In this document: one piece after another, positions 4,269 through 61,192 of the stretch
Layout: every line of letters starts with the position of its first letter
How positions within the stretch are numbered: position 1 is the stretch's first letter
Assembly: GCA_016125185.1 (NCBI GenBank)
Contig: WGMG01000001.1
Coordinates: 558,001 to 622,000, forward strand
DNA: 64,000 bases
From: Armatimonadota bacterium
Lineage (GTDB): Bacteria > Armatimonadota > Fimbriimonadia > Fimbriimonadales > Fimbriimonadaceae
Reading direction: 5' to 3'
Position numbers and translations under genes: made by a program
The notes under the pieces: generated by a model
Database searches by the model: none
What the model saw: the letters and a program-made list of their open reading frames with translations, nothing else
What the model was told of the DNA's origin: nothing

Positions 4269-4472
4269 ACCTACCACCTTCCAACTTTCGACCAACGCAG
4301 GGCTGAAGGCCCGTTCTAACTTAGCCCAGTCTGGAGAGCCGAGAATCGGCTCGGAGGGCTGGGTAGGCACCATGGCCAGAAGAAGTCCAAGGAGCGAAGT
4401 CGAAGACCCCGCCGAGCTTGCGAGGGAAATGGAGCGAAGCGGAATCGGGGCGACCCGGCGATTATCGCCGCC
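4269..4472 (+). repeat. Repeat R2, copy 1 (longest)
   Basis: About 200 bp, starting at CCTACCACCTTCCA and ending at the GGCGATTATCGCC hairpin. The core GGGCTGAAGGCCCG, then AACTTAGCCCAG, then a variable segment, then GGCTGGG is repeated at 6818-6975 and, inverted, at 13289-13410. This copy carries an extra purine-rich segment of about 50 bp (GAGCGAAG-like units) that the other copies lack. Confidence 0.88.
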
Positions 4473-6817: not shown

Positions 6818-6975
6818 CCTACCACCTTCCAGCCATTGACCAACGCAGGGCTGAAGGCCCGTATTAACTTAGCCCAGGTCGTAGTTCCGCAGGAACGGAG
6901 GCCTGGGTTGGGGTTCGTAACCGACAAAGTCCAAGGAGTCCCGAAAATGGGGACGACCCGGCGACTATCGCCGCC
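6818..6975 (+). repeat. Repeat R2, copy 2
   Basis: Second copy of R2, about 158 bp. The core from CCTACCACC through AACTTAGCCCAGG and the closing GGCGACTATCGCC hairpin match copy 1. The middle segment differs (GTTCCGCAGGAAC hairpin here). It ends 24 bases before the rhaB start. Confidence 0.88.
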
Positions 6976-13288: not shown

Positions 13289-13410
13289 GGCGGCAATAAT
13301 CGCCGGGTCGTCCCGATCCTCGGGACTCCTCGGACTTCCCTGTTTTCGTGTGCACACCCAGCCCTTGCGGACTGGGCTAAGTTAAAACGGGCTTACAGCC
13401 CTACCGGTCG
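13289..13410 (-). repeat. Repeat R2, copy 3 (inverted)
   Basis: Read on the minus strand this matches the R2 core: GGGCTGTAAGCCCG, then AACTTAGCCCAG, GGCTGGG, GGAGTCCCGA and finally CCCGGCGATTATTGCC. It lacks the first 50 bases of copies 1 and 2. It lies between the fpg stop and the next gene. Confidence 0.85.
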
Positions 13411-34275: not shown

Positions 34276-34296
34276 TTCGTCTCGCATTTAGCGAAC

Positions 34297-34331
34297 AAAA
34301 AGACCCGTTTCATTTGGAAACGGGTCTTTTT
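34297..34331. terminator. Strong bidirectional rho-independent terminator
   Basis: A perfect 15-bp stem, AAAAAGACCCGTTTC / GAAACGGGTCTTTTT, with loop ATTTG. The A and T runs on each side make it work for the lipoprotein gene (plus) and for the convergent nucleotidyltransferase gene (minus). Confidence 0.92.
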
Positions 34332-34334
34332 GTT

Positions 34335-58220: not shown

Positions 58221-58245
58221 CCGATGAAAGAGGGCCATGTGGATT

Positions 58246-58354
58246 GCGCGAATTCATTCGCGCTTTGGCGAGTCGAGATTCATCTCGACCTAGACCGGCA
58301 GAGAGATAAATCTCTCAGTCGAAAGCACCGATTAATCGGCGCACTCCGAAGTGC
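58246..58354 (+). repeat. Repeat R5a: five consecutive hairpins with different stems
   Basis: Five palindromes in 109 bp: GCGCGAATTCATTCGCGC, GTCGAGATTCATCTCGAC, GAGAGATAAATCTCTC, GCACCGATTAATCGGCGC and GCACTCCGAAGTGC. Each stem differs, and each loop is two to four bases. The last half matches the plan of R5b and R5c (stem, then AGnnnAAAGC, then stem, then GCACTCC). Confidence 0.8.
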
Positions 58355-60642: not shown

Positions 60643-60707
60643 GAGCGGCGAAATCTCAGCGAGACGGGTCTCGCAGTCCAAAGCTCAAACAGGTTTGAGC
60701 ACTCCCA
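60643..60707 (+). repeat. Repeat R5b, two hairpins
   Basis: Plan: CAGCGAGAC-GG-GTCTCGC, then AGTCCAAAGC, then a stem (CTCAAAC-AG-GTTTGAG), then GCACTCC. It lies just beyond the 3' end of the RNase P RNA gene. Confidence 0.8.
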
Positions 60708-60708
60708 A

Positions 60709-60733
60709 AAAAAGGCTACCCTGGCCCTTCGTA
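60709..60733 (-). terminator. Terminator of RNase P RNA
   Basis: On the minus strand AAGGGC and GCCTTT pair (one G-U) across a seven-base loop, followed by TTTT. It lies right after the rnpB 3' end. Confidence 0.55.
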
Positions 60734-60739
60734 CAGGAA

Positions 60740-61052
60740 AATGGAGTCGGCCTGTAAGCCGGATTCTGTATTTGTGTGACGATTTATCTGCGCGGCCAAC
60801 CCGGAGAGTCGTCGGGCCGAGTCATCCTCTCCCTATTTGGCCTTGCTTCTGGTGGGGTTTGCCCGCTCGCTGGTTACCCAAGTCGAGCCGTGAGCTCTTA
60901 CCTCACGATTTCACCCTTGCTCTTTCAAGCGGTTTGTTTCTGTTGCACTTTCCGTCGGGTCACCCCGCCCCCCGTTGCCGAGGGCACCATGCCCTGCGAA
61001 GTCCGGACTTTCCTCTCCCGTATGACCAGGAGCCGTCACCCGGCCAACTCCG
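60740..61052 (-). ncRNA. rnpB: RNase P RNA
   Basis: About 310 nt on the minus strand. The 5' part carries GAGGAAAGTCCGGACTTCG (opposite of 61004-61024), which is the conserved P4 region. The 3' part carries ATACAGAATCCGGCTTACAG (opposite of 60751-60772), the conserved P4-closing region with the tRNA-CCA pairing context. The pairing GGCCGGGTGACGG near 61040 fits P1/P2 and P3. Ends are set by P1 pairing and are good to about ten bases. It is the catalytic RNA that matures tRNA 5' ends. Confidence 0.93.
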
Positions 61053-61077
61053 TTAAGGATTATGACAGTTGCTGAGT

Positions 61078-61132
61078 GCGGCGCAGCGAGACAGGTCTCG
61101 CAGGGGAAAGCAAATGCAGGCATTTGCACTCC
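61078..61132 (+). repeat. Repeat R5c, two hairpins
   Basis: Plan identical to R5b: CAGCGAGAC-AG-GTCTCGC, then AGGGGAAAGC, then a stem (AAATGC-AG-GCATTT), then GCACTCC. The second stem has a different sequence from R5b on both arms, so it has changed in step. It lies just before the 5' end of rnpB. Confidence 0.8.
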
Positions 61133-61192
61133 GAAAGAAGCGGTCATCACCTTACTTGAGTTTTCTTTCTGCCAACTGCTGACTGCCAACTG

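Follow-up and report, generated by a model that had tools for sequence, protein, structure and literature searches.

Palindromic repeats flanking the RNase P RNA gene of an Armatimonadota bacterium are probable members of a RAYT-associated REP family

In a Fimbriimonas-like member of the Armatimonadota, the RNase P RNA gene (rnpB) is bracketed by two short palindromic elements, here named R5b and R5c, which are very likely two single copies of a REP family moved by a RAYT, their position beside rnpB being the outcome of insertion into a permissive gap between genes. Movement of the family (R5) very probably depends on a small tyrosine transposase, the gene for which lies at another place in this genome. 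The assignment of R5 as the REP family of a RAYT follows from the gene for such an enzyme, which is flanked by inverted R5 copies, and from the match of its product, in both profile and fold, to the TnpA-REP of E. coli (4ER8). The elements were found in a 64,000-nucleotide stretch of DNA, referred to below as the window.

Location and structure of the elements

Both elements are intergenic, share the same orientation (plus strand) and are each separated by about 30 nt from the nearer end of rnpB (60739..61051, minus strand; bacterial RNase P RNA class A, RF00010, 237 bits), a host gene outside the elements. Since rnpB is on the minus strand, R5b (60657..60706; 60.8 bits with the covariance model R1) stands behind its 3' end and R5c (61084..61133; 63.4 bits) before its 5' end, in the gap between rnpB and lipB. 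The placement and orientation given in the first-pass annotation are borne out by the sequence and the RF00010 match, and the common motifs that it listed (CAGCGAGAC-RG-GTCTCGCAG, AAAGC and GCACTCC) can be read directly in R5b (CAGCGAGACGGGTCTCGCAGTCCAAAGCTCAAACAGGTTTGAGCACTCC) and R5c (CAGCGAGACAGGTCTCGCAGGGGAAAGCAAATGCAGGCATTTGCACTCC).

Each element consists of a 7-bp hairpin, GCGAGAC-NN-GTCTCGC, followed by an 8-bp hairpin, AAAGC-N6-AG-N6-GCACTCC, with a loop of 2 nt in each. Hairpin 1 occupies 60659..60674 in R5b (GCGAGAC-GG-GTCTCGC, the stem of which occurs at 23 exact sites in the genome) and 61086..61101 in R5c (GCGAGAC-AG-GTCTCGC). Hairpin 2 carries the variable stem, GCTCAAAC-AG-GTTTGAGC at 60683..60700 in R5b and GCAAATGC-AG-GCATTTGC at 61110..61127 in R5c; the minus-strand tag of R5b is GGGAGTGC. 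The second stems had been described as unequal in length (6–7 bp) and as altered in both arms over 6–7 positions. Changes in both arms are real, but both stems measure 8 bp and, in register, four of the eight pairs differ. The pattern AAAGC N5-9 RG N5-9 GCACTCC has two matches, as against 0.04 expected in shuffles, and its chance occurrence is excluded. Folded as DNA, the minus strands of R5b and R5c both reach a z-score of -3.7, and neither element has an Rfam match, even at E 10.

The R5 family across the genome

Confinement of the AAAGC...GCACTCC flanks to this locus, which the first-pass annotation had named as an argument against a functional paired form, was not found: model R1 detects about 45 relatives of R5 in the genome (E<2e-5), on both strands, and the exact core of hairpin 1, GCGAGACNNGTCTCGC, occurs 23 times. 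One seed row of R1 (C4:208737) is a spacer A short, and the covariation tests described below are independent of the model; its matches in related genomes are only partly independent evidence, because the species share descent. Two forms of the family can be distinguished by the loop of hairpin 2, which is AG in R5b and R5c and AA in the other (GCGAGAC-AA-GTCTCGC ... GCGCGGAC-AA-GTCCGCGC). Read on the minus strand, the conserved ends of R5 are GGAGTGC-stem-GCTTT. Six near-identical copies with the stem GCTCAAGC lie in a single orientation within about 11 kb (locus L102, G000:C5:86767-97651), a local amplification, and a GGCGGGCGTGACGCCCACCCTCCAA unit, which resembles the two-hairpin repeat of the rnpB-lipB gap in the related genome G009 (described below), precedes many of the AA-loop copies.

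Maintenance of the paired form

Covariation was assessed by holding AAAGC and GCACTCC fixed and leaving the 14 bases between them free, with no structure assumed; the chance of perfect 6-bp pairing is 1 in 4096 per match, and a reversed control pattern gave 0–2 matches per strand. A perfect 6-bp free stem was present in 24 of 32 matches in the genome under study (G000), in 46 of the 56 matches listed for the related genome G002, and in 25 of 36 (G009), 24 of 25 (G007), 10 of 19 (G011) and 24 of 33 (G036) elsewhere. Most matches with free arms thus pair perfectly and do so with 34 different stems over the six genomes, which shows that the paired form of R5 is maintained. When 3' arms were shuffled among the distinct arm pairs, a mean of 0.8–1.0 perfect stems was obtained, compared with actual counts of 10 (G000), 18 (G002) and 10 (G009), and in these genomes the shuffle is clearly beaten. 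It is beaten only marginally in G011 and G036 and not in G007; in these three, distinct arm types are few and the highest shuffled value equals the actual one or comes close to it. Among 21 own-genome copies, which are related by descent and not independent, Watson-Crick cells make up 96% of stem 2 (shuffled mean 64%, maximum 80%) and 99% of stem 1 (shuffled 84%, maximum 93%). Matched changes also occur in hairpin 1, in the form of GAAGC, GAAAC and AAAGC arms.

The earlier proposal that the paired form is functional therefore holds for the family, in the sense of maintained pairing. Copies with unpaired second arms, which had been set down as evidence against it, do exist (eight of the 32 own-genome matches have imperfect second stems), but the majority pair perfectly, and a minority of this kind is as expected of decaying copies. 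The two window copies do not, however, demonstrate the point by one having turned into the other, as both stems occur elsewhere. G009 has two copies with the R5b stem, GCTCAAAC, which a single matched change separates from GCTCAAGC, the commonest stem of the own genome; the R5c stem, GCAAATGC, stands beside the RAYT gene at L115 of G009. R5b and R5c are thus, by the distribution of their stems, members of two older, established sublineages and not one element changed in place.

The RAYT gene and its flanks

A search of the genome for Y1_Tnp (PF01797) returned 13 matches. One of them, at G000:C1:335991-336512, about 222 kb before the window, encodes a 174-aa HUH/Y1 protein and is enclosed by inverted R5 copies at 335906-335958 (minus) and 336522-336574 (plus). 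The protein matches NCBIfam REP_Tyr_transpos (NF047646) with an E-value of 2.6e-18 and 66.3 bits, below the curated cut-off of 80, and is, as far as its sequence goes, a divergent relative. Its profile match in the PDB is 4ER8, TnpA-REP (E 2e-10), and the best Foldseek match of its AlphaFold model (pLDDT 87) is again 4ER8 (E 2e-9), followed by the TnpA of ISDra2/IS608. The features sought as a RAYT signature, namely the HUH motif, one catalytic tyrosine and Y---NP, are all present: H64, H66, Y124 and N128 are invariant, within H64-Y-H66, Y124 and N128-P129. The Y1 genes at L059-L065 were considered as mobilisers of R5 and rejected, as other repeats stand at their flanks.

Relatives of this RAYT were detected in 19 of 61 genomes, and in a scan of named genomes its close relatives came from MAGs of Armatimonadetes and from a Fimbriimonas that is uncultured. 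At 14 RAYT loci in seven genomes, R5-model matches lie close by on both sides, the left one on the minus strand and the right one on the plus strand, and GGAGTGC-hairpin-GCTTT flanks are visible at further loci. The flank pattern has 426 matches in the 19 genomes with a RAYT, as against 52 in the 42 without (Fisher p about 1e-5). Two observations run the other way: G017 has 22 matches although no RAYT reached the threshold there, and the count is 0–3 in several genomes whose RAYTs are more distant and whose hairpins differ in loop or flank. Flanking stems vary between genomes, and the two sides of a single RAYT gene may carry unlike stems, as do GCGCGAAC and GCTAACGC in the own genome and GCAAATGC and GCGAACAC at L115 of G009. 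A flank of another RAYT, at L133 of G009, is matched by the own-genome copies with AA loops, which may therefore have no cognate gene in their own genome.

The rnpB neighbourhood and alternative explanations

The gene order around rnpB (TPR-like gene, rnpB, lipB, RNase HII) is the same in G002 and G009, both of which have no R5b at rnpB. The site of R5c is taken in G002 by two R5-type elements in inverted orientation, the stems of which are different, and in G009 by a different two-hairpin repeat (L173, ~1820-1876; GTGAGCG-TCC-CGCTCAC ... GTGGGCG-AGA-CGCCCAC-CGCTCCC). When the model was applied to 30 rnpB loci from relatives, strong matches appeared at one, the locus of G002, and a conserved place for R5 beside rnpB was accordingly rejected. 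The intergenic space next to rnpB has thus received repeats on more than one occasion, the bracket itself is peculiar to the own genome, and no specific link with RNase P RNA is supported. Its further suggestion, that R5 might also be found beside other RNA genes, yielded a tRNA near one of 34 own-genome loci, and no other Rfam family reached the gathering score near R5 at 20 loci. This gene, for tRNA-Arg(CCT), about 43 nt from the copy at C1:440629 (L075, 1501-1552 and 1595-1670), is the sole RNA-gene neighbour found besides rnpB.

These observations bear on the idea that R5b and R5c are RNA structures acting on rnpB, as terminator, processing signal or 5' regulator, with paired changes that keep an RNA fold. 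The elements do lie some 30 nt from the rnpB ends, and their stems covary as RNA stems would. This explanation is nevertheless highly improbable, given that relatives with equal gene order have no conserved bracket, that copies occur on both strands and, one tRNA excepted, away from RNA genes, that a transposase gene is flanked by R5 in seven genomes, and that a scan for promoters and terminators around rnpB found nothing inside the elements.

It is likewise very unlikely that R5 derives from an IS200/IS605-type insertion sequence, either as its ends or as non-autonomous relics of it, and moves in the manner of an IS and not of a REP. The enzymes belong to the same superfamily, and the six gene loci in G002 suggest that the RAYT gene itself may move; against this, the protein scores 66 bits as a REP transposase and 25 bits as IS200, its tyrosine motif is Y---NP (class 2) and not Y---Q, and the dispersed copies are mostly solo or outward pairs 86–102 nt apart, unlike IS ends. 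Some enterobacterial REPs have host roles, such as binding of gyrase, IHF or Pol I and stabilization of mRNA 3' ends. That R5 is now kept for a role of this kind would agree with its stems staying paired and with the acquisition of such roles by REPs elsewhere, but there is little chance of it, since the positions at rnpB are unconserved between relatives and the number of flank-pattern matches varies between 0 and 70 across the family.

Transposition model and relation to known systems

R5 shares with the REP/REPIN and RAYT systems of E. coli, Stenotrophomonas and Pseudomonas a multi-copy tagged palindrome and the inverted flanking of a Y1 HUH gene (PMC2817692, PMC3116915, PMC8266576). The family is a dispersed short palindrome of about 45 copies, stands inverted around its RAYT gene and forms inverted doublets (REPINs), represented in the window by a pair with outward tags at 58236..58352 (38.0 and 39.7 bits) and by pairs with 86–102 nt spacing in G018 and G009. 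Outward pairs and palindromy kept by matched changes are likewise common to R5 and known REPs or REPINs; such changes have been described for REP palindromes (PMC2817692) and within REPINs (PMC3116915).

In its functional form R5 is most probably single-stranded DNA that a transposase recognises, and not RNA. The strand bearing GGAGTGC would fold into a hairpin while single-stranded, for example at a replication fork, and the HUH/Y1 enzyme would recognise the tag and hairpin, cut with its tyrosine and move the element, steps modelled on what has been published about the TnpA-REP enzymes of E. coli, Stenotrophomonas and Marinomonas (PMC8266576). A copy with an unpaired stem would not be moved again, and the covariation would arise because new copies could be founded only by stems in which both arms had changed to match. 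The R5 elements beside rnpB would be insertions into a permissive gap between genes; no clean empty site for R5 was found.

R5 also differs from known REPs. The strict tag GT[A/G]G is absent from the hairpin foot, which has the conserved tag GGAGT followed by the stem GC, and each element has two hairpins. REP families with other tags exist, such as CGTC (PMC3733652) and those of subclass 2.6 and class 3 (PMC6006769). The RAYT resembles TnpA-Y1 subclass 2.8, a group from Cyanobacteria with REPs tagged GT[AG]G and with the tabulated motifs NHYH, W[YH] and YIHYNP (PMC6006769). It is REP-flanked, has a proline-containing N-terminus (SWPHAP) and fits the pattern NHYH, W[YH], Y-[IV]-H-x-N-P; its own motifs (NHYH, WY/WF/WH, YVHNNP) are close to the table and not letter-identical (PMC6006769). 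By motif only, then, it may be placed in subclass 2.8, and R5 would be the REP family of a subclass-2.8-like RAYT with GGAGT in place of GT[AG]G. The host is a member of the Armatimonadota, and in the literature searched no report of REPs from that phylum was found. The copy number of about 45 is low beside the hundreds typical of REPs in E. coli or Pseudomonas.

In one genome, ten different perfect stems occur together with a single RAYT gene of the family, a diversity that is unusual and counts against the REP/RAYT assignment. It is possible, if somewhat doubtful, that the RAYT has relaxed stem specificity, in that it reads no more than the GGAGT tag, the size of the loop and the presence of pairing, and so serves many sublineages with unrelated stems. 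The diversity would be due either to a relaxed reading of this kind, as genes with two different flanking stems suggest, or to the passage of several RAYTs through these genomes, each leaving a sublineage, as the AA-loop orphans suggest.

Other repeats in the window

The Acido-Lenti-1 'sRNA' (RF01687), with 33 matches in the genome, including 13357-13402 (+), 6847-6907 (-) and 4299-4335 (-) of the window, is like R5 a two-hairpin multi-copy repeat of the same genome that flanks Y1 transposase genes, but it has another sequence and is associated with other, IS200-like Y1 proteins. At eight loci, spread over five genomes, it lies 42–213 nt from an IS200-like Y1 transposase gene, for the most part in minus orientation to the left of the gene and in plus orientation to the right, and in the own genome it flanks two Y1 genes, as against 0.05 expected. 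Like R5, RF01687 is probably a DNA repeat associated with a transposase, and not an sRNA. G005, of the same genus, has 52 matches, but a search for a related Y1 transposase gene detected none at E<=1e-10. At 34294-34334 of the window, a perfect 18-bp inverted repeat with a 5-nt loop, A/T runs at both ends and a weak Thr_leader match is probably a bidirectional intrinsic terminator.

Conclusions

Covarying DNA hairpin repeats can be mistaken for non-coding RNAs, and caution is needed. With their constant ends, the 34 perfect stems in six genomes constitute a natural stem library, so that what the RAYT reads (tag, loop, stem sequence or pairing only) is directly testable. If its specificity is indeed relaxed, new stems can arise and spread.
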